Assembly (NCBI GenBank): GCA_947034895.1
Contig: OX344761.1
Coordinates: 90,595,447 to 90,659,446 of the forward strand
DNA from: Rhytidiadelphus loreus
Lineage: Eukaryota; Streptophyta; Bryopsida; Hypnales; Hylocomiaceae
DNA: 64,000 nt
Direction of reading: 5' to 3'
The notes beneath the pieces were generated by a model. The model was not told the DNA's origin, ran no database searches, and worked only from the letters and a program-made list of their open reading frames with translations. Each line of letters begins with the position of its first letter. Positions within the stretch are counted from its first letter, which is position 1. The position numbers and the translations under genes were made by a program. Positions 26,829 through 56,139 of this stretch are shown here, piece by piece.

Positions 26829-26839
26829 CCTACTAGAAC
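26829..26839. repeat. 11-bp target-site duplication of transposon A (left)
   Basis: CCTACTAGAAC; the partner GCTACTAGAAC lies at 48277-48287. Confidence 0.8.
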
Positions 26840-27030
26840 CAACGACGCTAGCGTGCGAGCGGGGAGCGAGGAACTTGTGAGCGGGGAGTGGGGAGCCTTG
26901 AAATTTATTTTTTTCAACTTTTTTACCAAAAAGCATTTTTTTTGGAAAAATAATTTTAATGGAGAAGAAAATATACTATTTTTAGTAAATTTTAGGACCT
27001 ATGACCATTATTCCTATAACCGTGGATTTC
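26840..27030 (+). repeat. Left terminal inverted repeat of A
   Basis: GCTAGCG is followed by clustered GTGAGC/GCGAGC hexamers (26850-26900) and, after an AT-rich spacer, by AGGACCTATGACC...CCGTGGATTT (26993-27026). The same modules occur at the left end of B and, inverted, at both right ends. Confidence 0.8.
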
Positions 27031-27245
27031 AATATTTTTTTTCAAAAATTGTCACTATTCATTTCTAGCAAAAAACAACTTTATATTGTGGTACACAATT
27101 CAGTATTCAATTCAACTACTACAATTTTTATGTCGAGGTACTCACAAGTTATTTTGAGAACACAATAGAATATATTAGGCTAATGTGACTCACAAACACA
27201 ATAATAAGTATAACCTAGCATTCACTAATGCTACTCTACATCAAC

Positions 27246-27256
27246 GCTTTGCTTGC
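27246..27256. repeat. 11-bp target-site duplication of transposon B (left)
   Basis: GCTTTGCTTGC, perfectly repeated at 42356-42366. Confidence 0.9.
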
Positions 27257-27475
27257 CAACGACGCTAGCGTGTGAGCTTGGAGCGGTGAGCTTGTGAGCG
27301 GTGAGCGGGAAAGTTGTGAGCGGGGAGCCTTGGAGTTATTTTTTTAGGACTTTTACACAAAGAACACATTTTTTTTTGAAAAAGCAATCAAAATTTGACA
27401 AATTTGTTGTTATATGAAGCAAATTAGAGGACCTATGACCGCTACCCCTATTACCGTGGATTCCGAGAATTATGA
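27257..27475 (+). repeat. Left terminal inverted repeat of B
   Basis: GCTAGCGTGTGAGC is followed by at least four further GTGAGC hexamers up to 27330, an AT-rich spacer and AGGACCTATGACCG...ACCGTGGATT (27433-27469). Clustered subterminal hexamers are typical transposase binding arrays. Confidence 0.85.
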
Positions 27476-28221
27476 CTAGGACTTGGTAAGGTCCACTTCC
27501 TGTTGGAAAGAATCCTTAAAACTTTGTATAATGAAGCATTTATTTCCCCTAACATTGTTTACATATTTACCCACTTCCACATTCTGAAGGAGATTTTAAT
27601 ATACGATATTTAGCAAATCTGAGAGACAAAAACAAATGTAGGGTTAACCTTTCCTCTACTACCGTAGCTTTTCCGTGATAGCTTCATACGAAATTCAGTA
27701 TAGAGACCACATTTAATGGAATAATACAGGGAGCATTTTAAGGTAATCGGGCCACGACATTGAAGGTCGGATTTTTCTCCCACATATGAGATAGGTACAT
27801 CCAAATGTGCCACCTTAAAGCGCCATCTTCGAAATCCAGATATACGATGATATAAACTATGAGAACACAATGAACAATCCACGGAAGGAAAGGGAAAGGA
27901 AAAGAAAATAAATGAAATGGAGACCAAAAGAAATTATGGGAAGACAATAAGAGAAATACATCAAAAATAAAAGGGAGAGTGATAGAAACATGGCTAAAAA
28001 GGTAAACATATTCATATGAACACCTTCGGATTTAGGGTTTGGAAACATGGTTCAACCATTCATAATTTAATTTGCAAAAAGATTTACTTTTGGGACATAG
28101 TCCCATATTTCATAAATGCATGGACATTTTCGAATTCATATGCTTCAAATCATATAAATGATACCAAATGGGAGTTTATACAATAAGAATGCAATACTTG
28201 TTACTACTGATGATGCGATTA

Positions 28222-31200
28222 CTACTCTAGAACTGTAATGATCCCTGCTTTTACCAGGAGAAGCTTCAATTCATTGAAGCTAAAACTTGGTGCATGAATG
28301 AATTTGTCTTCATGGATGTCCATCTTGCAGAAATACCGAAACAGGTAGTACAAGTGCTTGCAATTTACATATTGTTGACGACCTCCAATAGCTGAAACAC
28401 ACATGTTGGTAAAGTCCGGGCATGTGCAAGAGGGGTACATACCCACTGTAATTTGATACACATTTTGGTTATGATCACTCCCGGTTTCTAGAGACACAAT
28501 TGCACCTAGTCCAGGAAAAGGCAACAATGCTACTCCAAGTATTAGTCCTTTGACATTGCTAGCACTCTCCCACTTGTTTCGTTGTTCTGTAGTTGGTACT
28601 GTTGAGATTCGGCGTATGCTTCGACTGTTTCGAACCGTTGGATACAAATGTGCATCATGTGGAGGTGGCTGATTATAAACAACGCTTTTGAAAACGTTGG
28701 ACATATTGAATAGACGACGAGGAGACAACGTAGGACGCTCTTGAAGGCGAAATCCAGCATGCTGTAGGAGTAACGTCTCCTCGCGGTTCAAATCTGTCCC
28801 GGTTAGAATAGGCCATACTTCTGGTACAGCCGGCCAATCTATTACCCACTTCCGCTTGGTCCCCTTCACACATCGTTCAATGTCATCTACACAGAACCAG
28901 AAGTCTGCTAGCACTTCGCGCTTACTCCCGTAATCTTCTTTTCTCCCACGATAAGTGGGAGCAGGGGTTCCCTTCCGTCCTTTTGAAATTTTTGCAGTGC
29001 ACCTGATATCTGACCCTCGCTGTTGAGCATGGCATTTTGCGTTTGATTTGTGGCTGATCCTCGCAATGTGCCACGTCGATGTGTCGCAGTCACTTTCAAA
29101 CGCAATGGACACATGCGGTGAAGTGTTCATTTGAGCCTGTGTATAGTTTTCCTCAGCAGAGTTGACAAACGCGGTTGTAGACCTTGTTCGAACACGAGGT
29201 TGAGAGAAATTTACTTTATTTGGTCTATGTGAGTCTCCGGCATCACCAATGGGTACATCTAACTTCCTCTTTGTGCTTCCAAATATTTCTTCCCCTTCCA
29301 AATGAGGTATGCGACTCCCGATACCTTCAGATCCAGGTAGTGTATTCAGTGCCTCTGCAATTTTCTTCGGATCTCCGCTCCGTCTTACAGCTCTCAATTT
29401 CAAGTCCCCCTTCGAGGGACCAGAGCCAGATGCATGTCCCTTCAAGTAAGTGCGATAATTTGTCATCTGCATCCAAGCACGGATACTATCGTCGCAAGTG
29501 GCATCAAATAAGTTGTTACCTCGATTTCCCGACATTTGAAGCCACTTGTTATGCACTGTTTCCGACAAGTTGCATGAAGGCATGTCAGCCATCTCCTCCA
29601 AACTCAATCCCTACCCCCCCCCCAAGAAATTCACATTCAATGGAAAGGACAAAAAGCAATAAACATTGAAAATTGAAAACCAATGAGTTCATGTACGTGG
29701 CACATAAGATGAAAGACACGTAAAGAAACTGAAATAAAAAATAAGGTAGTCCTCTTCGAATTTGCAATCCTAGCCCTTCATGAAGTAATTAGAAAATACT
29801 CATAGTTATATACCATAAAACAAAAAAGAACAATAAATTCTAAGATTTATTTGACAATGCAGGAACAACCAAATCAGATAAGTATTGCAGTGACCTTAAT
29901 ATTTGCAAGAAGCCTCTCCACTACCTATAACGAAAATGCCAGAATGCAAGCTAATGGTCCAAGTGATGAAGTGCATCTTCCGTGGTAGCTCCAGAAGATA
30001 ACCACCATGACCGAATTGCTAGGTATTTGGTCTCTGCGTCCTCCATGTTCTTTGAATCTTTGTATTGCTTACATAATAAAGTGTGTTGATGTTGGAATGC
30101 TTGCTTGATATACTTTTGTGTGTGCTTTTGAAGTGAAGAACTCCAATGCAACAAGCAAGTACGTTCCCGATTTTCCATTTTTTGATTGGCAGAGCCACTC
30201 CCATAGATGATACGAACCGCATTCCAATTGGCCATAGCACTATCGGCCATAAACCCCTTGAAGTTTGGGTGTTCTATTCAGTGTCGGGACATGACAGCAT
30301 TCAAGCATTTCCAAAAAATCACTTGAATCTCTGTATCTTCCGATTGCATATCGCATGTAGAAATGGTCATCACCTTTTTGTACTCAGGGTCATACACGTG
30401 GCAAGCCATCGTGGTCCAGTCCTTCACACGCTTCACGTGGTCAAACATCATCCACGCATTTTCTAGATTCCCTCCTGGTTGCATGCGTTTCACCAGATCT
30501 ACTCCACTGCCGGGTCCTTCTAACAGCATCTTGAAAATGTACACCTTCTCCTTCCCTTGTCCAGGGAAAATGCTGTCGTGAATGAATTCGAACTTAGCCT
30601 CCTTCTTCATGGTCATAATATTGTCGATAACGCCTCCGCGGTTGTTTGAGCAGAATGAAGATATGACGTTGCGGATGTTTGGACTACTTAAGTACTCAAA
30701 GCGGTCCATGACCTCTTCTAGTTCATGTCCTTTCAACATCTTCTTCTCTCCCTTCTCATTGTGAAAAAGATAGGTTGTTAGGAAGTCTTTGCTAGCAGAG
30801 AGAGCAATTGCGGAGTTGGTGGCCAGAGGTGTTTTCGCGACCTGCTCCGCAATGAATCCACAAATCTTTTCTGCAGAGTCTCTGTACATGCCTTTCGCTA
30901 CCGGGTGACAATGATCTCCGATATGAATAGCTGCCCTACTCATTTTCGGATTGTCACTACAACAGTAGTAAATTCTAGCACTGCATGTGTTCACACACGT
31001 AGGTGTAACTTTGCAAAGCTTACAAACTAACGTGCAATCTTTGGGAGCAGTATCCCCTACTACAAAAGGAAAGGTAGTATACCCGGTCCACTCTGTTTCA
31101 TTGCGGTTTTTAGCTCTAGTCAGATAATCACACTCTAGATTCATACAAGCAAGATGACCAGCGCAGTATGACTTACGGAACTTTAGGTTATCGCAGTTGT

Positions 31201-32158
31201 GGATGTTTGTAGTCAAGACCTTGCACCAAGGGTGACCATCATAGCGCTTATCCATCCCTTCTAGGTTCTTGGCTGCAGAGGAAGATGACCAGCATAGAGG
31301 CAACTCGAAGATAACATCACCATTGAATACTGGTGGAAGGAATTGTACATGATGGTGTTCTACAGCATTTAGATCCATCATAGACAGTTCATTCCTAGAT
31401 CGATGCATTCTGCCTAATCTCTTCAAACACTCCATAATGCTTACTCTATCAGTAGGAGATGGATGGAACGGAGGACGTGAGAATAAGGACGGCGATTGAC
31501 TTTGTGAAGGGGTACTACATCTTGACTTCATGAGAGTCGTTTCCACCGAGGGAGTGTGGATAGAGCTTGTTGTCTTCTGAAAAATATAGTCAGGAGACTC
31601 ACCTTCTGATTTACTAGATAATTCTATGATTGGATCTAGTTTCTCAAATTTCACCTTCCTCAATACTACATGTTCTGGAAAGACTGGCTTCACTTCACGA
31701 GGTGGATTAGGTGAACTAGTGTGTGCAATATAAGGCATGTCTACTGTAGAATTATCGGATTGGCAGCTAAGAATCTCAGTAGAGGCATCTATAATAGAAA
31801 GAGGAAGCCCGTATGCTCTATAGTTTCCGGGAGCAAGATACCAGCAATGCGTTCCATCTTCCACGGTTCTCAACATAGGAACAGACTGTTGAACTTGACC
31901 TGCTTCTGACATCCTTTCCTCTTTGACATATATGGAGGCTTCTACAAACCTAAAACAGACATGGAGAAGGTGTGATAGAACTTTAGCACGTCCTCCATCC
32001 TCTAACGGAAACACAATAGGGACCTCATGTCCATCAACTCGAATGCATGCCATCATGTGAATCTGCAGAGGGAGTACTAGCAAAAACGACACTAATTTGG
32101 ACGTGGGAGATGAGGTACAAACCAACTTGCCTCGAAGTAGTTGGTTACACTTCTTCAC
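28222..32158 (-). CDS. MULE-like DDE transposase with SWIM zinc finger (probably disabled)
   Basis: The protein cuts and rejoins the ends of its own element. Reading leftward, an exon from about 32056 (ATG after a CTCTGCAG acceptor; the frame stays open from 32158) to 30281 holds a low-complexity region and a Cys/His-rich FLYWCH/WRKY-like zinc-binding segment (HPWCKVL, CNTCSAR-type cysteines, IGDHCHPVAKGMY). The RNase-H-like core follows (HVYDPEYKK, STCDMQSED). The same frame continues to 29951 with FKGFMADSAMANWNAVR, carrying a second catalytic Asp. After an intron of about 340 bp, 29607-28222 carries NLSETVHNKWLQMSGNRG and the SWIM finger (CTC...NCKH) near its end. Defects: in-frame TGA at 30278-30280 and TAG at 29951-29953. 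The rest of the frame is well preserved, so inactivation looks recent, unless stop read-through occurs. Confidence 0.8.
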
Positions 32159-32159
32159 T

Positions 32160-33231
32160 TTATACTTGCTATTTTTTTTTTTTCATGATGAAGCCAATTT
32201 ATTGGGCCGCCTCGTCTTAGCCTCTTTTGGGTTCATTACGTAATGTTGCAAGAGGAATATCTTCCTCATTCATTTTAAGATAATAAACTTTCTTGATTGA
32301 TAATTATGTTGTATTATATGAAAATGAAAGTCGTTGTTTGGGAAAGGACAGTACAACACTATTTTTTTGGTGTTAAGAACTACATTAGCATTGCAAATGG
32401 ATCCCAAGTGTATTAATAATGACTGGATGAGAATTGAAGGTCGTCAGATATTCATAAGAGCTATATCGGGGAAATTCTAATGTACCCATTCATTCTGGAC
32501 ATTTTTTTGGGCTAACCACCACCATTCCGCTGAAGTTTCTATTGAGTAAGGGTTGCTTAACGGATCTTTAAGAGAATACCTTGTCATAGAAGATATGATT
32601 TGGTCATACACCTCTCTTACAACTACCAAATCTTATTAATTCTTCTATGGATTTTCCTACAGAGTTCTGACAGAATCGGGCGGTTCACTAACCAGTACTA
32701 TTTGGAATCAAAGAATTCTGAGGTACGGTACCTCATGAAGGCCTTTCAAGAATAGATATTATTTTTTCATAAATGGAAATCCAGCTGATCACTTAGGATT
32801 CAGTTGGGCAACATTCTCGAGACACTATACACACAACTATTAGTGGGCTACGGTTCTTTATTACTTGAGAATTTTCATTAACGTCCGGACAAAGTACTTA
32901 CTAGTATTTAAGACCCTGTAGTCATTTTCGAAGTACTAAATGATTTGATTAATGTGTAGTACGTACCTTGCGCCGGCACGATGGAGTGACCAATGAATGC
33001 CAACCTTGTTTGGGAGAGATTCCAACACTTGAATTTCAAATGGCAGCTTTGAAACGTACAGTAAGCGTCATTTCCTTCACTGGCAATTCTCATCTTCTCC
33101 CACCATCACACACTCCAATTCTTATACTACATAATGGTGGTTTCGGTTGTTCTAAGACAGACCCATTGTTTTAGGTTTAAATCCCGCTACCGCTTGTAGT
33201 TCAGATGATTTGATTCCATGTAGTTTACCAC
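32160..33231. promoter_or_regulatory. Divergent promoter region of transposon B
   Basis: About 1.07 kb separates the two divergent genes. It is AT-rich and has no ORF worth calling. A short candidate exon (ATGGCAGCTTTGAAACGTACA|GTAAGC near 33.04 kb) could belong to the plus-strand gene, but its phase does not join the next exon. A shared bidirectional promoter is inferred from the arrangement; no specific element was identified. Confidence 0.4.
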
Positions 33232-36200
33232 ATGCGTGTAGAGGTCCAAGTAGCTCATACCCTTAGTCACCAGCACCGGAAGAGGCGAAAGAGGCATAGT
33301 TCATTTTATTTTTCATCTAGAAAAGCCTTGAAAAGATCTAGGATGACAAGAGGTAAAAGAGTGGTTTCGAGGACAGCTCAGGGAACAGGAGGGGATTCTC
33401 GAAAAGTTCTTACGTTTGGAGCTGGAATAAGTGGTGACCACGATGTGAGAGTGAACAATGATGATGCGGTTCAAGAGATCTCCGGGGAGGGTAATAGTGC
33501 ACAACATGGAGCAAGAGACTTGGACACAATAAACGTAAGACTCAGGCCTTCATTCTAATTCTTATTATTTGCGAGAGTCCTTGGATTTAGGGCGAAATTG
33601 TCTTTACAACGTGTTCTTTGTGCACCTACTACTTGTGCTCACCATTGCAATTGTACCAGGATTTGTGCAAAACTAGGGTCTCTTGAAGAAGAGTTAGCTG
33701 TGAAAAGGCCTTTGGTATGAAGCGTACTATATTATAGGAATATTATTTTCTATAGCCATTACCAATTCTTGAATATAAACCTAGAAGCGAGGTTTACCAT
33801 AGGCAGAGTTTAGGCTATCCTAACTATAGAGATATGTTACTATTGTTTGAAAGCTCAGATAATAATAATATCATTCACCCTAGATGTTCATTACACTTTT
33901 GATTTTAAGAAAATATCATGCACCTTTGAGCGACTTCTCTCTCAAAGAACTCCAGTACATTTTGCCTCTTACATGTTTAGGAGGTGTACATTTGTGAGGG
34001 GGGGGCGCTTATAGAAAACACTTTTACTTAAACATAAAAAATTTGTAACTAATACTACAATGGTCCAAAAAATATGAAACTACTTGGGTTCAATTTCAAT
34101 TTCATTTTTCATACAACTAAAATGTACTGCAAATTCTTTGTATCAGTTTAGCTTCCCAGAAATAAAAATCAACTATTAAAAGTTCACTTGAATGGCCCCC
34201 AACCTAAAATTTAGATAATCTGCTAGCAGAGCTGGTGACGCAGTAGGAAGAAAATCCGTTAATCTAGATTCTGGTTTGGAAACCCTTGTTCGAATCAAGA
34301 GGAATGGGGGGAGCAGCTGGATAACCCTTGTCCAAAATAGTTTGAAGGCGCCGCTGGTTCCTCGCTGACTTTCCCGCATTTCGGTGCTGGCTATGACAGC
34401 TGGCGCCGGCTGGTACACTACTTTTCGGGGGAAGGGTCTCGCCGTCCCTCCACATGAGCTCTCGATTCTTCCACTTGATCCATTCCTCCTGCAAAGTCTC
34501 CAGCACGTCCGTTTTCATTTTCAGAAGTGCAAACCTCAGTTGTTTTGACTGTTCCTTTGCAGCAGGGGAGGATGACTCGCAGCACAAGGAGCCGCGCTGG
34601 ACAAGAGGACCCGAATCCGCAAGCTCGTGGGGGGAGATCAACTCCAACTCGACCACGCAACCAGGTAAGAAATATTCTTTCTCGATGCAGCACCTGAGTT
34701 TTTGCAAGCTTGTTTGCAGGTCTCGAAAGTCGTTCACGTTCTAGAAACAGTTTATGATTCGGCCATTGGTTCACGTCATCGACAACTGGTTCACGTTGAT
34801 CTTCTTCAACTGATCTCCGGAAGGTGACTGAAGAATGTCGGCGACGTTGAAGAATGCCGCTACTGCATTTTGGTTTCCAAGTTCAGTCGCTTAGTGCTGC
34901 GGACTCGAGCTTCGAAATTCAGGGGCCATCGAATCTTCTTGTTTCTACTCGTCTGATTCTTCTCCCGGCGATGCTTCGGTCGTGTTCAGTCGCTGAGTGC
35001 TGAGGTCGGGAGCTTGAAATTTCAAGGTCCATCTTCTGTATTTTACTCGTCCGATTCTTTTCCATGCTCCGGTCGTGACGATCCGCGAGGTCGTGGATCA
35101 GGGTCCTTCGGTCGCGGATTTGGTTCGTGGATGAGGGACCTGCGAGTTCATGGATCAGGTCCATGCTTTGGTCGTGCCGACCTGTGAGTTATACGTTTTT
35201 GGGGGGGTCGGACCGGACCTCCGCAAAGGTCAGTCGGATCCGACTGATCCCTGGAGAGGGTCAGCCGGACCCCCACAAACAAGTAATACATTTTTCTAGT
35301 TGCATTTTTCTAGTTGCATTTTTCGAGTAATACATTTAACTAGTAATCTCATGGACGAGGGAATCCAGTCCTGTGATCTTCGGTGGTTTTCCGGGTCCTG
35401 ATCACCGATCACCCGATCGCGACGTTCTGAAATGTTTTGAAGTTCAGGTTAACTTTTATGTTGACCTGTATCAATGTACGGGAGTGATCACCGATCACCG
35501 ATGAACCGATCGTTGGGATCTGGAGATTTTTGAAGTTCAGGGTAGCCTTGTCGATCACATTCTTTGGGATGTTCACCGATCAAGTACAACCCGATTACCC
35601 GAACGCTGGCTTCTAGAAATTTTTTAAGTATCCTCGAACTTTGACGATTACCTGTATTGGGGGGTCGGACTGGTCCTCCCTGAGGTACCGTCGGATCCGA
35701 CTAATCCCTGGCGAGGTTCAGCCGGACCCCCCAAAACTGGTGACCGTCTGGATTCGGTAACGTCTGTGGTTTTTTTTTTTAAACGGTAAGATGTTTTTGG
35801 AACGCCTACGAAGTGGAAGAAAAATGTTCTTTCCCTGGCATTTTGACATTCCCATTTGACAGAAATAGAGTAATTCAGGAATTAGTCTACCAAAAAAAAA
35901 ATGCATTATAAAAGTGACCTCCGAGTACTAAACTGAGGGGGTCAACGGAACTCATCCTGGTGGTCAATCGGATCCGACTGAACCAAAAGTCGGATCAGGC
36001 CAACCCCCAGAATATGGTACTTGTATTCATTTTCTGATTATATTTTAGGTGCCTTATCCAATTATCTATTTATTGTCCTTTATTGTCCTAGTTTTTCCTT
36101 TTTTTTTTTTTTTTCACCTACGTCGTTGGACTTTGTGGGGTTTTGGAACCTCATGTCTCATCCTAGTTTTCCGTATTTAATTAGACATCCTTCATCCAAT

Positions 36201-39200
36201 AGTTTTCATCCAATAGACATTGATCATTCTTATTCCCTAAACCTTGCTTATTGAGAAATCAATTATATTTCTGAGGGAGTACACATTTGCACTTTAAGTG
36301 TGTGAGTTGGATCCGACTTAAGAATTTCTATTCTTTGCTTGACCCCTTAGAAGTGGTAACTCATTTATATAAGCTGAAATATTATATTAATCTATAATTT
36401 TCTGATGATTCATTTAGTGCTTGTAGAAACATGATGCATTATAGATTCTCTTCATGTTCTGGATAATTGCAAATTATATTGATGAGAGGTCATTTGAATA
36501 ATAACATCTTGTGTCTGTACCTCATTTGTTGAATCAATACGTTTAGTTCTAGTACCAATATTAGGAGGTCAAGCAGAATGTCTATTGGGGTCAGTCGGAT
36601 CCGACTGAACCCCAATCGTCTTCTCTTGGACCCCCAGAAGATGGTACTTCACTAATTTCCAACATAGGTAGAAGCATCTTCTTCTAGTACATTATCCCAA
36701 CCCAGAAGGCATTTATTCTTTCATTTCAAAATTGGAATCAACTTCTGACATGGTATACGTACCTTACCATTTGTATTTGTGCAATTGTTTGTTTTACTGA
36801 CAGGTTGCGGATGGAAGGCATGGATCTACGGTATTGCCTACTACAGTTCCTGTGTCTCAAGCACCAAGTCCTTCACAGCCTTTCACTCCCGCCAACAACA
36901 ACATGGAGGTCTCAAGTGATTCAAAGGATGAAGATACTGTCCTAGAAGACTTGGTAAGCTTCGATGATGTTATGGATGCGGCTGACCGTGCTGCAGATGC
37001 TTTTGAGCACTCCATGCATAGTCGGGTTAGTGACCTCGAGGCAACGAAACATCACGTTAGTGAACCTCAGCTAAACTTGCGGAAGCGCAGGATGCTTGTG
37101 TTCTCACCTGAGAGTTCGAAAACCGAGTATAGCTCAGATAGCGAGCTATCTTGCTCCATTGATGGTCCTATGTTTCTAGACACGTGCCAATGTGTTAGTA
37201 GCACTGCTCAGGGAACCCGTGAAGTTGTCCTCATTCTTCTGAGCTCAGACGAAGATGATGATGTAGACATTGATTGATTCCATTTCATTGGATATGCTTT
37301 TTGGTTGCTCCATGTTAGACTTCATTATGTCTAACATACCATTTATAGTTTAAGTTATAAGTATATTTATCCTAAAATGTTTGTTCACTTACACACTTAT
37401 AGTAAAATTTTGGTCTTTTTATACTTCACATGCTTTGAAGTTCAAGATTCATCGTCTTTTTCAAATGTAATCTTTTTGATCCATCGTCATTTATGCTTTC
37501 TCAGATGGATGTGTCACCAGTAGATTTATCACATGTGGAGAAAATAGTCAAAACTCCAGGAACCGATGACACAGCTCAACCCGATATTGGAGGGGATGAG
37601 GACTTCGAGGAGGATGAAGAGAAGGAGTTAATGGAGGATGAGCTCCGGAGACTCCAAAAGGTAGACTCTGTGGCTACAATTGCTTCACTTCGAATGAAGC
37701 TGGACCGGTTGTTTCGGCTCCAAATCCCACTCTGCAGACTTGTTGCAATGCCCATGGTACGCCCAACTCTCTCTTGTGACTTAGTCAAGCTGGAACAAGA
37801 ATTTGTAAATGGGTATCGAGATGGAGCGGCTGTATTCTACGTAACAACGACGAATGAGGCTGGAGAAAGCTCAGAGTTTTCGGAGGTAGAAATGGAAAAG
37901 TGGGGGCCATTGTGGAAAGAGAAGAATGAGATCTTCAACGAGTACGTGGAGTCAGTGGCTGAGTTACAATTCTTGAAGAACTTAAAATTTTATGTTTGTG
38001 ATGGCAATCACCGTCGTTTGGCATGGATGAACCACATTTCCAGGCTTCATCCAACCAAATGAGATTGGCATTGTAGCGTTGACTCTATTGTGTTGGACAC
38101 GAAGGGGAAGATTGAGCTTGTCATGCATGTCATGCATGACATAAATAAGTAAGCATTGCTCTTTTAAATTCTATTTTCTTTTACTGCAACTCTTAATTCT
38201 TGTTTGTATAGGTTTAAATTGCGTTGGTGAACAATAGCTAAGTGTGATTGTTCAAATTGCAGATCGACAGAGGACTCACATGTGAAGACTAATCTTGTAC
38301 ACACCTTATATCGAGTTCAGAAGTATGGTCTTCTAGCCATGGATAGGTTCAATGAGATGTTGAGACCATCAGAGGTCAAACGGTGTGGAGCCTTGAAGGT
38401 GAAGAAAACTTGGTACTCAATGCCAGTAGAGGTCTTCACAGCCTTTGTTTTTCGGGTGAGAACTGCCTTTTTCACTTATCGGAATTTTATTTTTTGTATA
38501 ATATCTCTTCCTTTCTTTAATGAGATTGTTTTGTCATTATTTATTTAAACCGTGGTCTTCCACAGCAAGAGATCGCCCAAGCAGCAGATGCTGCAGTGAG
38601 AAGGTACAACAAGGTCACCCCGTTTGAAGAGAAGAGTCATGAAGGTGTCACAAACGCTATGAGAATCGGAGCAAAAGAAAAGAATTCCAAGCTGAATGTG
38701 AAAATGATCAAGTTGGTAATCGTAGCCAATCCTGCTCATGGGCCTGACTTCCTAGCAGAAGTAAGTGTTTCATTTCCAACATATTTTCAAGTAGCCTTAC
38801 AGCCTTACTGTATGTTGAAGTGGTAATTCTAATTCAAACTTGGTTGTTTCTGTATAGGTCGAAAAGCATTGGAGCACTAATGAAGTTCCAGAGATGACTC
38901 TAGAGAAGCTCCAAATGGTGGCCACTTGCAACACAACTCCGTTCCACAAGGTGAAATTCTTGAAGTGGTGGAACTCTTCATTGCCATCACGTGATGCCCG
39001 GCGGTTTCCAACGCGACCCATGTCTGAGACCTTGCTCGGACCGTTCTTGAACAAATGTGTATGGTATGCTGGGGTAAGTACTCATTTGATCACATAAAAT
39101 AATTTGATACTACTTATTTTTTTCAAATTGGATTTCAAATTTTTCAAATTCTATCTATAAGGTCTTTACTACTGAAATATTAATTGATCTTGCATTTCTA

Positions 39201-42020
39201 TAGATTGAAGATGCAGCTGTGGAGTACTTTGAGGACGTAGTAAGGCAAGACAACATCACGGTGAACATGGAAGTTCCGCTGCAGCCTGAGTTCTTGTCGG
39301 ATTATATCGAGGGGTGGAGGAGGAAGATTTGGGATCAAGGGTTCCTGGCGGTACTCAGGGGAGCCAACTATTTCAAGAAAAGTGATTGTTTCATGACTTA
39401 CGATGGATCCAGACAGGCGGTTAGAAGAGTTCTTTTCCGGTAACTATTACTGAACCATTTGTTTACTTCTTTGAATTCAAATATGTGCAAATCATTGAGA
39501 TTCTAATGAGTGAGTCTTACTTGATGGTCATGATTAATGACGCCAAAAGTCTACAATGAAAAAATGAACTAAAGATTGAATGTCTTATGCAACACATGTA
39601 GGTATAAGTCCAAGGGGTCATAACTCAAATCCATTTCATAAATACTTCCTTCCAAATTTAGAGGTTTCATGTATTCCAAATAATCATCTCACCATTGAAT
39701 TCGTTGCTTTGGGATTCTTTAGTTCTTTTTCCTTCATTGTACAAAATATATTTTTAATCCACGTAACTCACTTATTTAATTGAATTGTCTTACTGAATGA
39801 CTGTTTTGGGGTATTGTTGTAGTTACTTCAAACATGAGTTGGAGGCAAAGGGAGCAATTTCAAGGAACGATCTTCCTCCATTTCTTTTCACTTGGCTCAA
39901 CCGTAGTTCTGCGGATTGCATGTACACTCCGAACCAACTCCACACTTATACGACGGCTCATCTCAGTGGTGGAGGGTGGTACATTGACTGTCCCGTCTCA
40001 TACACTCATCCGTCGGAAGTTCATTTCCGGAACTCTTTGGAGGGCATCGGTGCAATTGACATGGAGGTGGATGAGTTTGCAGGACTCACGGATAGGCAGA
40101 GAAGCAGGGCCATTTCGAAGAGGGAAGCAAACGATAGGAAAAAAGCGGCTCGGCTCCAAGTTCTTTTGGAAACAAAAGACAAGAAGGAGAAGGAAAAAGA
40201 AGAAAAGATGAAGGCCAAGTTGGTAGAAAAGGAGAAGGAGAAAGAGGAAAAGCTCTTGGCCAAAGGAAAGAAGATTGTCGATGGTGGTGTTGTTCCAGCA
40301 TCATCTACAGTAGACCAGAGCTCTCAGTTGGAAGGTGGAACTCAAAGCGGGGTGAAGAGGAAGGCGACACTCATGCAACTAACGGAAGACGTCATTACTC
40401 AAGGGACACAAGCCATTGTTCTTGGCGATGATGAATTGGAGAAGACTGAGGATTTAATCCTGAATATTTCAATTGAGGACCTTGTAGAGGACATGGATAC
40501 TGAGTCGCCGACTTGTTATAGAGAGGTCATGGACTTCTGGAAAAAGGTAATTTCTGGATTACTTTGAAATTACTAAGTCATATATCAAGTTACCAACCTG
40601 AACATTGTGTAGATGATGAATTGATGGTACATAAAATCCAATGTGTGTAGTTGTCAGGGAGGAAGCCTCGCATGTTTTACGGAGTGCCGAATGCTAGGCC
40701 TGGAGCGGACCTAGTATTTTTTGATTGCCCTGAGAACTTGCCTGTGCCGGGACTATCGTCTCCATCCACCAAGGTGCCGACTTGGAACGCAGATTTGGAG
40801 AATGAGGCTCTTCAAGCGGCATTTCAATTCGCATTCAAACATTTGCAAGACCATGGATGCATGATAGTATTTTATTCATGGAGCGCCGATGTCAGGGGCG
40901 ATATTGCAGGATTGTGTGAGGCTTACCGCATGGTGAAGAAGAAGGAGTGGTGGGGAATGAATCGTCTACACTTGACCTCGGCATTGGATACTAGGGCTAC
41001 GGTAAACCAGCAACATGAAGTTCTTGAAGTTGGTAGAATCCTTTCCTTTGGATCATGTTATATTCGTTTCTCATATATATTTTATTTTTCTAATTGCAGA
41101 CGCAGAGGTTTGGAATTAGCCTCCTTGTGAAGGACTTCGGAGAGAAAGGGAAATCCAATTTCACTTTCAAGCGCACCTCGATGATGAAGAATGTTGGTGT
41201 TGACATTGGTCGAGATGACATGTTGATGAACTACACGAAGGAAGATGACATGGCAATGAAAGATGGGAAGCCATGGCGAGGTGCTCGTGAAAAAGATCCT
41301 CGATTTTTCCAACTACTCATTGAAGCTACAACTGTTGAGGGAGACTTGGTTCTGGATTGCACCGCATCAACAGGTAAATATTCAATTTTTTTCTTCTCTA
41401 TTCAAGTAGAAATTCAGTAAATCATTCATTTCACTCATATTTTATATTCACTGGACTTCAGGTGCATCAATTACAGCTTGTCGGGGCACAGGCCGCCACA
41501 TTGTGGCTTTGGAGGAGAACATTGATATTTTTGATGCCCTCCTCAAACCCGTGGAAGTCTGCTCCAATCGTGGTGAAGGCCCCACCTAAACCACCAACAC
41601 TTCAAGACTCACATGATTCGGATGAAATGCCCGTGGTGCCTCGCAAATTTGCTCGAAGGGGAAAATTCAATAAGTAAGTTTGCATTTTTTATAAGTTTTA
41701 AATTTTATCGAAATCTTTGTGTTTTACAAATCTAACATTCTATCATATCCAATTGCAGCCATCGAGGATTGACGTCAGCAGATATGATGCTCAACAAACA
41801 AAGTCTTTTCTACAGTCCGGAAAAGACTTTTCATCTTCCACCCTATGCAGAGCACATGGCATCAACCTTCGTGGATTTTGGTTGTCAACAACCAAAACGC
41901 CGTAAAGATACATATGCTCTGAATGTGTTACAATTCATAGATGGATCAGCATCTGAGGGTAGAGAGACTTCAGAATCTTCTACCAATGAAGATTCAGCGA
42001 CTGAGTCCACTGCAGCTTAG
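33232..42020 (+). CDS. ParB-like / beta-class DNA-methyltransferase fusion gene of transposon B
   Basis: Exons by splice sites and phase: 33232-33534, 36804-37262, 37505-38148, 38263-38455, 38566-38760, 38858-39073, 39204-39439, 39823-40546, 40651-41001, 41100-41373, 41462-41673, 41759-42020 (TAG). All junction phases agree. Exon 3 has an acidic stretch and then a ParB/sulfiredoxin-like domain (IPLCRLVAMPMVRP ... YVCDGNHRRLAWMNH). Exon 8 has a Lys/Glu coiled coil. Exons 9-11 have a methyltransferase fold in beta-class order: motif IV position ADLVFFDCPENLP, an IVFYSWSAD strand, a KPWRGAREKDPRFFQLLIE helix, and motif I VLDCTASTGASITACRGTG followed by RHIVALEEN. DPPY and DPFxGSGT are altered, so catalysis is doubtful. 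Defects: TGA at 38060-38062 (transposon A has ATG there) and a +1 shift in exon 11 near 41.56 kb. Exons 1-2 are the least certain. Confidence 0.75.
34215..34300 (+). repeat. tRNA-like / SINE-like pol III promoter boxes
   Basis: A perfect A-box consensus TAGCAGAGCTGG (34224-34235) is followed 52 bp later by a B-box-like GTTCGAATC (34288-34296). The spacing fits a tRNA-derived SINE head. No cloverleaf tRNA is evident, and the 3' end of the SINE is not defined. Confidence 0.4.
34264..34744 (-). other. Antisense exon-like ORF in the first intron; possible captured gene fragment
   Basis: A 157-codon minus-strand frame looks protein-like (NDFRDLQTSLQKL, EKEYFLPGCVVELELI, LQEEWIKWKNRELMW), with balanced composition unlike its AT-rich surroundings. 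It is preceded by a good acceptor (CTGTTTCTAG at 34741-34750) and has a possible donor (AAAA|GTAGTG) near 34.42 kb. MULEs are known to pick up host gene pieces (Pack-MULE behaviour). I do not recognise the parent gene. An overlapping frame on the same strand (34418-34774) is a shadow. Confidence 0.35.
34875..35660. repeat. GC-richer tandem repeats in the first intron of the methyltransferase gene
   Basis: Two units of about 100 bp begin GTTCAGTCGCT(T/G)AGTGCTG (about 34880 and 34987). Two others begin ATCACCGATCACC (about 35400 and 35487) and end TTGAAGTTCAGG. Their GC content stands out from the rest of the element. Confidence 0.6.
35202..35280. repeat. GGATCC-palindrome repeat, copy 1
   Basis: A unit opening GGGGGGGTCGGACCGGAC and closing AGCCGGACCCCC around the perfect 16-bp palindrome CAGTCGGATCCGACTG (35231-35246). 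Confidence 0.75.
35657..35735. repeat. GGATCC-palindrome repeat, copy 2
   Basis: Same layout as the copy at 35.2 kb: GGGGGGTCGGACTGG, the palindrome GTCGGATCCGAC (35690-35701) and AGCCGGACCCCCC. Confidence 0.75.
35936..36015. repeat. GGATCC-palindrome repeat, copy 3
   Basis: GGGGGTCAACGG, TCGGATCCGA (35968-35977), then GGCCAACCCCCAGAATATGG. More diverged than the other copies. Confidence 0.6.
36587..36652. repeat. GGATCC-palindrome repeat, copy 4
   Basis: The perfect 16-bp palindrome CAGTCGGATCCGACTG recurs at 36592-36607, flanked by GGGGT and AACCCC, and is followed by GGACCCCCAGAAGATGG. Confidence 0.7.
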
Positions 42021-42244
42021 ACTAATGAGATAGATATGTCTCATATGTCAACTACTATGTATGGATTTCCATTATGATTGGATTTTGTGTGTTTTATGGC
42101 TACATATGGAGTGTCATTTATTTTCTTTTGCATTTTTTAATGACATCATCTCATTGAAAATGGACCACTCTTACTTATTCAACATAAAGTCTCTTATAAA
42201 AAATAAGTAAATTTGAATAAATGAGCTCACTTCTCTGGATTATC

Positions 42245-42355
42245 CAAATTTCGTAAACCCACGGTCATAGGCTCCTCACACTTTTCTCTCCAAAAAAAAA
42301 GGGAGGCTCACAGGCTCACAAGCTCAAGCTCACAAGCTCACATGCTAGCAACCCT
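42245..42355 (-). repeat. Right terminal inverted repeat of B
   Basis: Read on the minus strand it starts AGGGTTGCTAGCATGTGAGC, continues with several GTGAGC/TTGAGC hexamers and ends in GGAGCCTATGACCGTGGGTT. It is shorter than the left repeat because the AT-rich spacer is missing. Confidence 0.85.
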
Positions 42356-42366
42356 GCTTTGCTTGC
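42356..42366. repeat. 11-bp target-site duplication of transposon B (right)
   Basis: GCTTTGCTTGC, identical to 27246-27256. Confidence 0.9.
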
Positions 42367-42764
42367 AGCTCATTATAGATATTGTATGCACTAGTATAAT
42401 TTGGGGCCTCATAGGATTCAAACCTCAGTCACCACATTCAAGTCTCATGAACCTCTCACAAATGTATTCCAATCTAATGTAGTGACCATTATTTAAGAAA
42501 ATATATATATAAATGGAAAAGGCATCTTTCCCAAAAAATAGAAAAAAATTGGAATACAAATAATAGACTAATAAAAAAAAATAATGACTAAGCAGTGGAT
42601 TGTAAGATCTGAATCATTATTAAAAATAATTATGTCTCCTAAATTGGAGAATGAAGGGAAAAAATGATGCATAGTATTGTTGCATTCTATACACTTTAAA
42701 TCATTTCAATCATACTAAATTTTAATACAATACAAAAAAAATACATAAAAAAATATGGCCAAGA

Positions 42765-43316
42765 CTACTCTAAAATTGTGATGATTCCTACTTTAACTAA
42801 AAGAAACTTCACCTCGTTGAAGCTATAATTTGGTGCATGAATGAATTTATCTTCGTAGATGTCCATTTTGCAGAAGTACCAGTATAGGTAGTATGTGTGC
42901 TTGCAATTAATGTATTTTTGACGACCTCTAATGGCTAAAATTGTCATGTTTGTAAAGTTTGAGCATGTGCATGAGGATTATGTACACACTGTAATTCAAT
43001 ACACGTTTTTATTAAGGTCAAATCCAATCTCTAGTTAAACAATTGTACCTAGTCCTAGGAAAGGCAACAATGTTACTCCTAGTATTTTTTTTTGGACATA
43101 GCCAACACTCTCCCACTTGTTATGTTGTTTTGTAGTTGGTGCATTTGCAATTTGCCATATGGTTTGATTGTTTCGGACCATTAGATACACATTTGCATCA
43201 TGTAGAGGTGGTTGAATATACAACACATTCTTGAATATGTTAATCATATTGAAAACTCGATATGGGGACAAAGTAAGGTATTCTTGCAAACATAAGCCAA
43301 CATGTTGCAATAACAA
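42765..43316 (-). pseudogene. Transposase C-terminal remnant of transposon A
   Basis: Two pieces on the minus strand (43316-43035 and 42947-42765, with a frame break between them) align with the end of B's transposase. They include LLQHVGLCLQEYLTLSP, KQHNKWESV, the SWIM tail KYINCKHTYYLYWYFC and the terminus VKVGIITILE. The first Cys pair of the SWIM finger lies in the broken interval. The whole N-terminal and catalytic part is absent. Its distance from A's left end, after subtracting B and one TSD, is about 0.8 kb, similar to the 0.97 kb in B. Confidence 0.8.
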
Positions 43317-43438
43317 TGTAATAATGTCTCATCTCAACTAAGATTTGACCCAATCAATGTGAAGAAGAGATTGCCTTTCACAGCGCACAAACAAAGAGGT
43401 TTTAAAAAAAAGGGGGGGGTTACAATAGGTAGTAGATC

Positions 43439-43763
43439 ACGTTTGCTATTTTGTGAACCTAGGGAGCTTGAGTCCATGAATATAGAAGCCTAGACTCTTA
43501 TGTTTTAAGCATCTTTCATAGTTATAGGATGTTTATATTATAGGTGTCAATGTTGTAGGTACTTATGTTATAAGCACCTTTTATGGTTATAGGATATTTA
43601 CATTATAGATGCCTAATTATATTATAGGTGTCTATGTTATACGCACTTTCTATAGTTTAAGGATGTTTATATTATAAATATGTATGTTATAGACATCTCC
43701 AATAGTTGTAGAGTACCTATGTGTCTAGACTCAAGGCTTATAAGCTCACATACTAGCACCATT
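43439..43763 (+). mobile_element. Small non-autonomous relative with TATAATATAGG-type array
   Basis: Its ends (GTTTGCTATTTTGTGAAC and AAGCTCACATACTAGCACC) are diverged versions of the A/B termini. The interior is a degenerate array of TATA(A/G)(C/G)ATCTTTCATAGTTATAGGATG-like and TATAGGTG units. The flanks GGTAGTAGATC and GAGTAGTAATG are only roughly alike, so the TSD is doubtful. It sits inside A. Confidence 0.45.
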
Positions 43764-44192
43764 GAGTAGTAATGAACCTAATCCTACGTTTGCTAAAAAT
43801 ATTGCTTTCATCACTGACGCAAATATTGAGGACGTGTTTGGAAAGTGCTCCAAACTAAGCACAACCTATACATTGTTGAATCCCAATGCAAATTTTGTTT
43901 TCATATAGTTGTACTCTTGTACTGTTATACTCTAAAATTTATGGATCTAAGTAGGTTACCAATGATGAATTTGTTGTTTGGTTGGTGAAGGGCTACATTA
44001 CAAATGTGAAAAGAAGAAGAAGGTTAATTAGACATTGAGAGCTTGGACAACCACTTTAGAAAAAACTTATCAAGTGCAACAACTCATATTTTGGCATTCA
44101 AATCTACTAATGGGGATATAACAACTTTGGATGGCAACCATAGTCGTTGTAAGATAACTCAACCTCTGACAAGCCAATTTTTGATCACCTTA

Positions 44193-44300
44193 TTGCAGGT
44201 CCAAAAATTCTTTAGCTATACATGTATCTTTTGAAATTTACTTCACAAATTTTTTTTCACCTACATTAGGTTGGTCCAAAGTTGGCCTGTCATAGGCTAA
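44193..44300 (+). repeat. Dispersed repeat, copy 1
   Basis: TGCAGGTC(C)AAAAATTCTT ... CCTACATTAGG ... CTGTCATAGGCT also occurs at 61990-62100. No terminal structure was seen. Confidence 0.55.
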
Positions 44301-45270
44301 ATTACCTAACATTCCAACGATGCGGAATTAACTTTTGTAATATGAAAGCAATGGTAATAAAAAAGTCATAAAGGTTATGCCAAGTAGCGCTAGGTCTTGT
44401 GACTTTTTTAACAACCTTTTTCATTACTAGGTATTGCAAAGTGATTTACATTTAGTTTGGAATGTTGCTGAAATTGAAAATGAGATTCTTGTGATTGCTA
44501 TAAGTAAAGTTAAATGTATAGAGCCATAGAAGTAGAGTATAAAAATCACAAACAATTTACTTGAATTAAAATTTAACATGGTTGATTGTTGTACGAATAC
44601 AATAATTAAAAGAAAATGCAAATAAGGTAGTACAACTCCAAATAGAGTTTTAGAGAGTTGCAAAGGCAATACTGGAATAAATGATGAAGGTAGGTTTTCG
44701 TATTTACTTGTTATAGTTTTCCATGTGTGTAAATTTGGATTCTTTCTATTGTTTGAATTCTGTAATGGGTTAACAATATTTTTCTGCAAATCACTATTGC
44801 ATTGTTGATTCATAAATAAGCTATTGAAATTTCTAAAGGCTATGATGAGCACGAAAAGTCGGAGGCAACATACAATATCTTGAAAGAAAGTTGGATGGTT
44901 CTCAATGAGTACTAAAGTTAAATTGAGAGAGGGCAATCAAACTTAAGGTGAAGACTTATATCAAGACATTGAAATACAATAGCTCAAAGTAGAATGAAAT
45001 ATTCAAATTTTGAGAAATGAGATTATGAAGATTAAAAGATATAGCACTATTGTTTATACACAATCTGTAGAGGTGGAAAAAGGTTGTAGTTTGTCATTCT
45101 ACCCAAAACAAACAACCCATCTAGCATTGACAAACAAACTTGATTTAAACATTGCTACCTTATATTCGACCGAGTTTTTTGAACTCCCAGTAGGACCCCA
45201 TATTTTTCGTTAAAATATATATATATATATATAATTATTATTTTCCAATCTTTTTTTTAATTTTTTTTTC
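44301..45270. other. Decayed interior of transposon A, no gene recognised
   Basis: The 169-codon minus-strand frame at 44427-44936 is AT-driven and has no family resemblance. By position this corresponds to the middle of the element, but I see no alignable remains of the transposase core. Confidence 0.4.
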
Positions 45271-45500
45271 GAGTACCATAAACGGGGGTAGCACCAGGTA
45301 GCTCGAGGAACCCCGTCGGGTCCAACTGAGGTTTTCGAGCTACCAGCCGGACCCCCTATTTTCGGTCAAAAAAAAAAAAAAAAAAAAATTTTTTTTTTTT
45401 TCGAGTACCAAAAACGGGGGTAGCACCAGGTAGCTCGAAGAACCCCGTCGGGTCCGACTGAGGTTTTCGAGCTACCAGCCGGACCCCCTATTTTTGGTTA
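45216..45500. repeat. Tandem pair of GGGTCC-type repeats plus AT and A/T homopolymers
   Basis: An (AT)n run (about 45216-45233) and an A-run joined to a T-run (about 45366-45402) surround two nearly identical units of about 90 bp (about 45270-45365 and 45400-45500). Each contains ACGGGGGTAGCACCAGGTAG, CCCGTCGGGTCC(A/G)ACTGAGG and AGCCGGACCCCCTATTTT. They resemble the GGATCC-palindrome repeats in B's first intron and occupy the equivalent place upstream of A's ParB-like exon. Confidence 0.7.
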
Positions 45501-46499
45501 AAAAAAGAAAGAAATGCCTCTTTGTTTTGCTTCAAGGCTAGTGGAATTTGAATTACTAGTTTTAAATTTTAGTTCAAATTAGTGATTGTGGTTTGGATTG
45601 AAGAGTATGAAGCTTAGTAACTTTGGATTAAAGTTTAATATGTTTTTGAAAATGAAATGTAATAGATGGATGAAATTTAAATAAAAACCAATTAGTTACC
45701 GATTCTTAGGGGGGCTTTGTAGTCTCCTCTTAGGTCAATCGCCTCCTACTAATTTTGGACAAGCCTTTGCTAAATCTCCTAGAATTGATTCTTGTTTCAA
45801 GAATTTAGGAATTTTCAATGTTGGAGTCAATTGGCAAGACATGGCGGGGGGCTATAAGCATGGTACATCACACATGTGGTGCGTCATGCTTTTAAATTTG
45901 AATTTAGTTTTTTTTGGGCCATTACTATTTAGTGATACTTTTGTGGGCCAAGGATGGTTTCATTCATTAATTTTTTCTAGTTATATGCAAATTTGAGAAG
46001 TTTCTGGTACTAAGATAGTTTTTGTTGACATTTATTAATTCTCGGATTTTCTTAAATTCATTTAATGTGACATCTTTGCATATATTATTGATGATCTTTA
46101 TAGTGACTGTATATTAAACCAAGATTATTTGATGAGAAACATAGCTTAGAGATTTTGTTTTATAAATTATTTTAATTTTCTTCTTAAAAATTATACATTT
46201 CATTTTGTACTTTGTAAGAATTTTTTTTTTCTTGTCTAGAGTTCAATTGTTAACATTGTCTTGTTGTCTCGTGTAGATTCAATTGTTCAAGTGCAATGAG
46301 GAGATGTGGGTCAAGCTTCAACCTCAAAGGTGCATCATAACATAGTTCTTGTTGCGGATGTGGCAAGTCCATTATAACAATGACTTCGACAAATGCAAAC
46401 ATTGAGATATCTAGTAACAAGTCAACTAAGAAAGCTACTAAAGTCATGCTCCATTCTATTCTTTGAAGAAGTCGAAGTTCTTTGTATGGAACAAAATTC

Positions 46500-47923
46500 A
46501 TTGTCTATTGGCGTGAATGAGTCATATTTCTAGGCTTCATCCAACAAAGATGTCTTGGCCTATTACAGTGAATTGTATTGTTCTCAATACCAAAGACAAG
46601 ATCAAATTGATCATGCAGGTTATGCATGGCATAAACAAGTGAGTGACTTCTTTTGCAAACCCATTTGGGTTTTACTCGTCTACAATTTATTTGTTATTCA
46701 AGATATATAAAAAGATTTTTCATCACCACATTGAAATTCAAATCCATTGAGGACTCCCATATAAAGACCAAATTGGTTCATATATTATATTGAGTGCAAA
46801 GGTACAATCTTCTATTCTTGTCCAAGTTTATAAAGATGTTGAGGACATTAGATGTGAAGAAATATGTTTTCCATACATCTAGAAAAACTTGACACTGAAT
46901 GCCAATTGATATTTTTCTAACTTTCATGTTCCAGATGAGATTTAGATTATGTAGGATTGTTGTTTTTCAAATTATTATTTTGTATTTTGTGGTTTGATTA
47001 ATTTATATTATTTTCTAATTGAAAAGTCACTTGAATCATGCAACAACATATTGTACTTGCAACGGATGCTACAAAATGAAATTGTAATGAGACAATCCCG
47101 TTTCAAAAAGAACCCTAAACTCATCATTGCAAATGCCATGAGATTGGGAGCTAAACAAAAGTCCACCAAGTTGTACTTGAAGATGATCAAGTTAGTCATG
47201 GTGGGTAACTCTACTCACGGTCTTGAGTTCTTAGAAGAGGCTCACACACACTTTAGAATTTTAGACTGCATCGCAACTATAGGTGACTATTGAATTCAAT
47301 TATTATGGATTCTAAGTCTAATTTGCAAAATGAATCTTTGAACTAATGTATATAATATTAATTTCAAGTGTATCTATTATTGTTTGTTATGGCATAGGTT
47401 ACCACATTGTAGCATTGGAAGAGGACAAGGACCTTTTTTACGCCATTGTCAAACGCATGAAGAAATGCACCTCAGTTGTAGCAATAACATGACCGCCACT
47501 ATTAGTTGTGATATTCCAAGATCTAGACACTACGACTATGGCACCTCTTAAGTTTGCTTAGAAGTCAAAATTTTGCAAATAAGCTAGCAATTTTTCATAT
47601 CCTTTTTCTTCATGTCAAGTTTTAAGCTTGTAAGTTTAACATTGTTTTACATCTATTTTTAGCCGTATGGAATTGACATCAGTAGATAGGATGATAAAGT
47701 CACAAAGTCTTTTCTTTAGTCTAGAGAAGAATTTTCACCTTCTTGTGTCTATCGAGCAGATGGCATCAACATTTGTGGACTTTGACTGCTCTAAACCAAA
47801 ACGCCATAAAGATACTTATGCTTTGAAAATTTTGGATTTATAGATGGCACTGCCTCCAAAGGTAGAGAGACTTTAAAGCCATCAACAATTGAAGGTTCTA
47901 TAACCAAATCCACTACGACTTAG
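46500..47923 (+). pseudogene. ParB-methyltransferase gene remnant of transposon A
   Basis: Alignable pieces of B's gene: end of exon 3 (about 46505-46640, HISRLHPTKMSWP with TGG-to-TGA just before it), exon 4 (about 46740-46870), exon 5 (about 47090-47245, ANAMRLGAKQKSTKLYLKMI), the second half of exon 11 (about 47398-47490, YHIVALEEDKDLFYAIVK) and exon 12 (about 47664-47923, ELTSVDRMIKS ... TAG). Exons 6-10 and the start of exon 11, with the coiled coil and most of the methyltransferase fold, are missing. At the position of B's premature TGA this copy reads ATG, so the B stop is a derived mutation. Confidence 0.8.
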
Positions 47924-48164
47924 ACTCTTGAGATTGACATATCTCTTGAGTCAAACTATAATGTGTGGATTTTAGAATTATGAGTGGATTTGTGTATTTT
48001 ATGGCTACATTTTGGACATTTTCTATTTTCATTTGGATTTTTTTCATCATAATGTCTATAAAAAATAACTGCATTTGCTTGTGGCAAAAAATATCTTCAA
48101 AATACATTTGCAAGTGCGTCAAATTTCATTAAAATGACTTCACATTTCCTGAAATTTATAATGT

Positions 48165-48276
48165 AATAAACCCACGGTCATAGGTCCCAACTTGTTTATA
48201 CTACAAAAAAAAATTCCCGCTCACAAGCTCACAAGCTCACAGGCTCATGCTCACAGGCTCACACGCTAGCAACCCT
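48165..48276 (-). repeat. Right terminal inverted repeat of A
   Basis: Read on the minus strand: AGGGTTGCTAGCGTGTGAGC, then repeated (C)TGTGAGC hexamers and GGGACCTATGACCGTGGGTT. It matches B's right end closely. Confidence 0.85.
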
Positions 48277-48287
48277 GCTACTAGAAC
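48277..48287. repeat. 11-bp target-site duplication of transposon A (right)
   Basis: GCTACTAGAAC; partner at 26829-26839 with one mismatch. Confidence 0.8.
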
Positions 48288-56112: not shown

Positions 56113-56135
56113 AAAAAAACAAAAAACAAAAACGT
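56113..56135 (+). repeat. A-rich 3' tail of the LINE
   Basis: CAAAAAAACAAAAAACAAAAA follows 3' UTR-like sequence and marks the LINE's end. Confidence 0.6.
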
Positions 56136-56139
56136 ACAT

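Follow-up and report, generated by a model that had tools for sequence, protein, structure and literature searches.

A moss DNA transposon family pairs its transposase with a divergent gene for a protein with a methyltransferase fold, an altered motif IV and candidate binding sites in the spacer

What kind of transposon lies in a 64,000-nucleotide stretch of the Rhytidiadelphus loreus genome (assembly GCA_947034895.1, contig OX344761.1, positions 90,595,447 to 90,659,446, forward strand; the whole stretch is called the window below), and what might the second of its genes do for it? The element carries a transposase gene on one strand and, diverging from it, an accessory gene on the other, whose product has a ParB-like motif and a methyltransferase fold. 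A first-pass annotation had noticed matched ends with a flanking duplication, and a pair of divergent genes of which the one on the plus strand has multiple exons; all of these are present.

The window holds two nested copies of the element. The inner, younger copy spans 27257..42356 (15,100 bp, no strand assigned), as delimited by its ends and by 10-bp target-site duplications (TSDs; CTTTGCTTGC) at 27247..27256 on the left and 42357..42366 on the right. Its left terminal region (27257..27330, plus strand) starts with CAACGACGCTAGCGTGTGAGC and continues in GTGAGC-type subterminal repeats; its right terminal region (42306..42356, minus strand) has GCTCACAA-type repeats and the terminus GCTAGCAACCCTG. 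The ends are inverted (CAACGACGCTAGCGTGTGAGC and GCTCACATGCTAGCAACCCTG), and the terminal inverted repeats are short and imperfect, with 36-nt arms that are 81% complementary. An exact 10-bp TSD flanks each of the nine copies with both ends located (six of the first ten fetched, the inner and outer copies of the window, and C4:19214400); in 5 of the 12 fetched copies one or both ends are absent from the fetched stretch. Because a G stands directly 3' of ...AACCCT in all nine of these copies, the G at 42356 is part of the element. The duplication is thus 10 bp long and not 11 bp, as first proposed, the eleventh base being a chance match. Likewise, of the span initially drawn (27257..42355), the left end stands and the right end moves outward by one G.

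The inner element has inserted into, and interrupts, a family member that is older and decayed and spans 26840..48277 between TSDs of its own (CTACTAGAAC, at 26830-26839 and 48278-48287). This outer copy keeps, in unchanged order, a broken transposase C-terminus on the left (42768..43319, minus strand) and broken accessory-gene exons on the right (approximately 46442..47954, plus strand), as well as a GTCGGGTCCGAC site at 45447..45458 (plus strand).

The genome as a whole (407 Mb, 489 contigs) shows that this arrangement is not peculiar to one locus. Exon matches fell on at most 15 contigs, mainly the five large ones (C1-C5), and copy numbers are lower bounds, as we scored the best 70 of 1612 transposase-exon candidates (after removal of a duplicate row for one locus), the best 150 of 1324 ParB-like-exon matches and the best 150 of 1121 methyltransferase-exon matches. 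A divergent ParB-like-exon match lies within 15 kb of the transposase in 52 of the best 70 places, against a mean of 0.27 and a maximum of 2 in 200 random placements; among the matches listed, a different geometry is seen in only one transposase/ParB-exon pair under 15 kb. A methyltransferase-exon match follows downstream on the same strand, within 40 kb and mostly at about 3 kb, in 117 of the best 150 ParB-like-exon matches. Unpaired matches among the best 70 or 150 are not readable as solo genes. Since there are many dispersed copies of the family, chance is excluded as the origin of the arrangement. Linkage, TSDs and dispersed copies bear out the proposal of a transposon family with a divergent accessory gene: the transposase and the ParB/methyltransferase gene travel together. 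Apart from these, a small contig (G000:C440:3468-7156) carries exons that match the two window query exons at 100% and 99% identity and is probably an assembly duplicate or haplotig.

We modeled the accessory gene as 10 GT-AG exons at 37505-42020 (plus strand), encoding about 1,090 amino acids, in place of the roughly 12 exons over 36804-42020 that had been suggested; the open reading frame (ORF) at 36801-37277 is set apart. The first model exon (37505..38148) contains DGNHRR at 38000-38017 and is followed by five exons (38263-38455, 38566-38760, 38858-39073, 39204-39439 and 39823-40546), by three exons of the methyltransferase fold (40651..41001, with motif IV DCPEN at 40723-40737, then 41100-41373 and 41462-41673, with motif I VLDCTASTGASITACRGTGRHIVALEE), and by a last exon with the stop codon (41759..42020). 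The window copy is damaged, with one stop in each gene and a frameshift in exon 41462-41673. The ParB-like exon is stop-free in all 12 fetched copies, whereas the window copy has a TGA at 38060-38062. Counted per aligned exon piece, between which frameshifts may remain, seven of the 12 fetched copies are free of stops, four have one or two, and one is truncated. In a 17.4-kb copy at about G000:C4:19216158-19233579, the accessory-gene exon pieces that align and two exons of the transposase are open.

Between diverged copies, the accessory gene is under purifying selection. The ratio of nonsynonymous to synonymous substitution rates (dN/dS) is 0.088-0.096 over 1,052-1,086 codons when window-type copies are compared with C3:14003600 (dN 0.060-0.065, dS 0.64-0.71), and 0.105 between two distant copies (coding pieces). 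For pairs with defined dS it is 0.059-0.080 in the ParB-like exon and 0.056-0.169 in the methyltransferase exons. Overall it is about 0.06-0.2 between diverged copies, with the truncated copy C4:68042100 left out and with dS saturated, often undefined, in the most distant comparisons. These values decide whether the gene is a captured host gene, a passenger of the Pack-MULE kind. Mutator-like elements (MULEs) tend to pick up host gene fragments, according to the available part of a study of them (PMC6446971), but the low dN/dS between diverged copies indicates that the gene is kept by selection through the element, and we reject the passenger on this ground. Its place and orientation, constant in diverged copies, its remnants in the old outer copy, and its relatives in moss and other contigs also make a passenger highly improbable.

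Profile comparisons argue that the methyltransferase fold of the accessory protein is real and of the beta class, as had been proposed. The methyltransferase-domain alignment of four family copies found 65 related proteins in a set of 5.8 billion, two of them named Ceratodon purpureus (a moss) and 55 located on contigs under 10 kb; the full-length protein and the full-length alignment found nothing in this set at E<=1. A moss relative, P0021, which is 38% identical to the family across 90% of the domain, passes PF01555 with 35.0 bits (cut-off 26.7; profile positions 2-217 of 221); of the eight relatives scanned, one passes, five fall below the cut-off and two have no match. All four family copies match PHROG methyltransferases (best 2e-8) and NCBIfam CcrM (best 2.3e-5, far below that model's own cut-off). 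By hhalign, the family aligns with a phage methylase (94.5%, E 7.4e-8), and the CcrM structure 6pbd aligns with it at E 0.0019. The family motif I, VLDCT[AS][AS]TG, aligns with motif I of CcrM, DpnA and the phage enzymes. Motif IV comes first in the accessory domain and motif I last, which is the beta-class order; CcrM, DpnA and the phage enzymes share it, and the family can be aligned with them along the domain.

The viral contigs yielded a single weak relative (35% across query residues 182-233) and no other, and a scan of genome contigs gave none. P0021 matched 184 phage records at E<=0.01, none of which covers 80% of it; the best 15 of these 184 are methylases or unannotated. Four phage regions were inspected, three with stand-alone methylase genes and one an unannotated record, and no ParB fusion was seen in them.

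The family departs from these enzymes in motif IV. In N4/N6 methyltransferases the catalytic motif IV is (D/N/S)PP(Y/F/W), and its aromatic residue normally stacks on the target base. CcrM, DpnA and the phage enzymes have D-P-P-Y or D-x-P-Y (the latter in three phage methylases of one alignment), whereas the four family copies have DCPEN or DCHEN. Across copies and relatives with the motif located we met D-x-[P/Q/H]-E and never a catalytic DPPY-type motif. The aromatic is replaced in all 48 relatives scored, of which 46 have E (as D-x-[PQ]-E) and 2 have K as the fourth residue, and 47 have D and 1 has N as the first; the search pattern did not constrain the fourth residue, although it was biased towards the family's flanking residues, and 17 of the 65 relatives went unscored. 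With glutamate or lysine in place of the aromatic, ordinary N6-methyladenine (6mA) or N4-methylcytosine (4mC) activity of the accessory protein appears doubtful. METTL14, a methyltransferase fold with lost catalysis, provides a parallel.

The same motif bears on a simple role for the protein, that of an active DNA methyltransferase which, targeted by its ParB-like part, puts 6mA or 4mC on the DNA of its own element. We consider this role rather unlikely: both the region of motif I and the aspartate of motif IV have been conserved, as such an enzyme would have them, but the DPPY aromatic has given way to glutamate or lysine in every relative with a located motif, and the three aligned phage methylases retain D-x-P-Y. 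The role would draw support from Sola1-1_Ec32 of the brown alga Ectocarpus, which has the same gene arrangement and a protein of similar length (1104 amino acids) that is predicted, in the accessible part of the source, to make 4mC or 6mA (PMC12477816).

Where on the element might the accessory protein act? Between the divergent genes of the window copy lie five palindromes, TCAGTCGGATCCGACTGA and variants with at most three mismatches, at 35230-35247, 35687-35704, 35964-35981, 36303-36320 (degenerate) and 36591-36608 (no strand); three of them contain the exact core GTCGGATCCGAC, at 35233, 35690 and 36594. All 18 stretches of 3.2-3.3 kb taken from upstream of the accessory gene (the 12 fetched copies, the window and five further stretches) contain the core GTCGGNNCCGAC, at one to four sites each, and in 200 dinucleotide shuffles per stretch a site appeared in at most one shuffle. 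Within the 12 fetched 20-kb stretches, 35 GTCGGNNCCGAC sites fall in 39.6 kb of spacer versus six in the other 200.4 kb, and two of these six still belong to the spacer of a single copy, further upstream. Five of the 18 spacers do not align by blastn with that of the window; they keep the half-sites, around a centre that is GT or AC (the same sequence read on either strand) and not AT. Because window-type copies are closely related, as are some of the distant ones, the 18 spacers are not independent, and the evidence for conservation is carried by the diverged groups and not by all 18. Two 103-nt repeats in the window spacer (35178-35280 and 35635-35737, 77% identical) each form a larger imperfect palindrome centred on GTCGGATCCGAC.

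The conserved palindromes may be a candidate binding site for the accessory protein. A separate question, which overlaps with the other readings, is whether they are promoter or transposase sites unrelated to this protein. Their place between divergent genes is one in which promoters are expected, and nothing decisive speaks against such sites, which we regard as quite possible while leaning the other way. The position of the palindromes also matters for a third role, that of a transposition cofactor without epigenetic function, acting in strand transfer, target choice or post-excision repair. Accessory genes of the mudrB type have a comparable role, and a divergent partner of the transposase that is conserved across diverged copies would fit it. 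The palindromes, however, lie in the internal spacer and not at the ends, which carry a different GTGAGC/GCTCAC repeat, and a cofactor seems unlikely to us.

We tentatively favor, at a little under an even chance, anti-silencing or self-regulation through recognition of the palindromes by a protein with a non-standard methyltransferase fold. In this proposal, the accessory product of about 1,090 amino acids would be brought to its own element via the GTCGGNNCCGAC sites of the spacer and, once there, would regulate it in a sequence-specific way or counteract its silencing, much like VANC of the VANDAL elements. Because the motif IV aromatic is replaced by glutamate, the methyltransferase fold is proposed to serve as a scaffold that binds S-adenosylmethionine or DNA, or to support non-standard chemistry. 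VANC proteins are encoded by VANDAL elements, bind short motifs repeated in the non-coding parts of these elements and remove silencing marks, as described in the available parts of two studies (PMC5735166, PMC10398659). The two systems would share a second transposon-coded protein, short repeated motifs in non-coding parts of the element, and motif variants that differ between subfamilies. In contrast to VANDAL motifs, the motif of the moss family is palindromic or nearly so, with one to four exact sites per 3.2-3.3 kb, and its protein has a methyltransferase fold, so the comparison is one of function only and not of sequence. The spacer palindromes give the idea of self-binding against silencing a concrete candidate site.

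Several results weigh against this interpretation. The transposase, or a factor of the host, might bind the palindromes instead. The altered motif IV, scored with the biased pattern described above, is insufficient as proof that methylation has been lost. For the fold, the match of the window domain to PF01555 has an E of just 9.3e-4 and that of the four family copies a best E of 0.0081, both below the cut-off, and in comparison with the PDB the single window domain finds CcrM at no better than E 0.053. The closest copies have a dN/dS of 0.28-0.85, which we read as decay of young copies after insertion. Finally, the ParB-like exon has no Pfam ParBc (PF02195) match in 11 copies at E<=10, no PDB match, and no hhalign match to P1 ParB, which alone is a poor yardstick; its AlphaFold model has a predicted local distance difference test (pLDDT) score of 42.8.

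The ParB-like label is accordingly given by motif. DGNH is invariant in 11 of 11 copies, and both of the arginines that follow it (DGNHRR) are found in nine. The PHROG ParB-like family phrog_1033 matches weakly in seven of the 11 (best E 0.041, about 24 residues). Compared with phages, the exon gave one irrelevant match, and with plasmids none. Thus, the motif noticed initially is present and has weak PHROG counterparts, and the Pfam and P1 ParB comparisons do not extend it to a ParB domain.

The transposase gene, on the minus strand, consists of a main exon (29951..32182), with a Cys/His-rich block and a CDMQSED...FMADSAMANW block, and a C-terminal exon (28222..29610), in which a SWIM-like CxC...CxH motif was recognized by eye at about 28350-28440. 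An in-frame TGA at 30278-30280 interrupts the main exon of the window copy; in L009, L029 and L031, the three copies in which this position was read, the frame continues past it. Neither PF10551, which we take to be the MULE transposase domain (E<=1), nor Pfam SWIM matched the transposase exons of the window copy or of L009, and the AlphaFold model of the transposase core, where MULEs have an RNase H-fold DDE domain, has a pLDDT of 33.0.

The available part of PMC6446971 gives 8-11 bp as the TSD range of MULEs, within which the 10 bp of the moss family fall, and describes SWIM transposases and, in some MULEs, a second antisense ORF, both of which have likenesses here (the C-terminal CxC...CxH spacing and the accessory gene); the words methyltransferase and accessory are absent from its main text as available. 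The family differs from MULEs in its short imperfect ends and in the lack of a Pfam MULE or SWIM match. The description as MULE-like fits the TSD length, the terminal inverted repeats and the SWIM-like spacing, as recognized by eye, and not the PF10551 domain, which is either too remote to match or absent, and we have not filed the element as a MULE. Its features suggest a DNA transposon family of the autonomous type, with a TSD of 10 bp and a SWIM-like transposase as its likenesses to MULEs.

The conserved acidic ORF or terminal exon at 36801..37277 (plus strand) ends in ...VVLILLSSDEDDDVDID, and this conserved end of its own rules it out as the first exon of the accessory gene. It is probably the last exon of a third, separate small gene of the element. 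The ORF is recognizable in two distant copies at 34-36% identity, and its end, ...EVVLILLSSDEDDDVDID, is a hydrophobic/acidic stretch that presumably resembles a SUMO-interaction motif.

Elsewhere in the window, inverted arms at 43491-43711 and 56131-56439 (up to 143 nt, 83% complementary, 12.6 kb apart) are possibly a further related insertion or a deletion derivative; the stretch after the right arm resembles the right end of the family (ACTAGCAATTGTGG). Direct repeat blocks at 10468-13181 and 22000-24921, 72-85% identical and about 11.5-11.7 kb apart, represent either an ancient local duplication or a pair of copies of some other repeat. Two adjoining ORFs at 15259-16346 (plus strand) contain an MDEIHF...DFGGD...VVRISGG stretch, which we take to resemble a remnant of a pogo/Tc1-type transposase. 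Rfam, at gathering thresholds, had no match in the window.

How new, then, is this arrangement? The element had been taken for an undescribed family, but the available part of PMC12477816 already describes, in Ectocarpus, a protein of 1104 amino acids with ParB-like and methyltransferase parts encoded on the strand opposite the transposase in Sola1-1_Ec32, a Sola1 element of 21.5 kb; ParB-methyltransferase accessory genes of transposons are thus a known kind. The same text cites similar transposon proteins of green and red algae (Iyer 2011; Petroll 2025) as a possible new class of accessory protein. In a search of the open-access literature by title and abstract opening, it was the only report of a ParB-methyltransferase transposon gene among the matches listed. 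Sola1-1_Ec32 and the moss family are alike in being large DNA transposons with a long accessory protein (1104 versus about 1,090 amino acids) whose ParB-like and N4/N6 methyltransferase parts lie on the strand opposite the transposase; they differ in that the one is a Sola-1 element of a brown alga and the other a plant element with a 10-bp TSD and a SWIM-like transposase. Within the open-access literature as far as it was available, three things are new: a land-plant family carrying this transposase, the motif D-x-P-E, and the palindromes.

At its boldest, the proposal would be that a bacterial-type methyltransferase has been turned into a site-specific chromatin factor, non-methylating or catalytic through D-x-P-E, that reads parS-like palindromes in the spacer and evades silencing, with site and protein having co-diverged between the subfamilies with AT-centred and AC/GT-centred palindromes; taken as a whole, we think this version improbable. 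More broadly, the moss family provides a many-copy land-plant case for the idea, in the available sources a published proposal, that transposons bind and mark their own DNA. It supplies this idea with a candidate binding site of defined sequence and, as a second feature, with a changed catalytic motif that is common to the relatives and therefore argues against reading the accessory protein as a simple writer of 6mA or 4mC.

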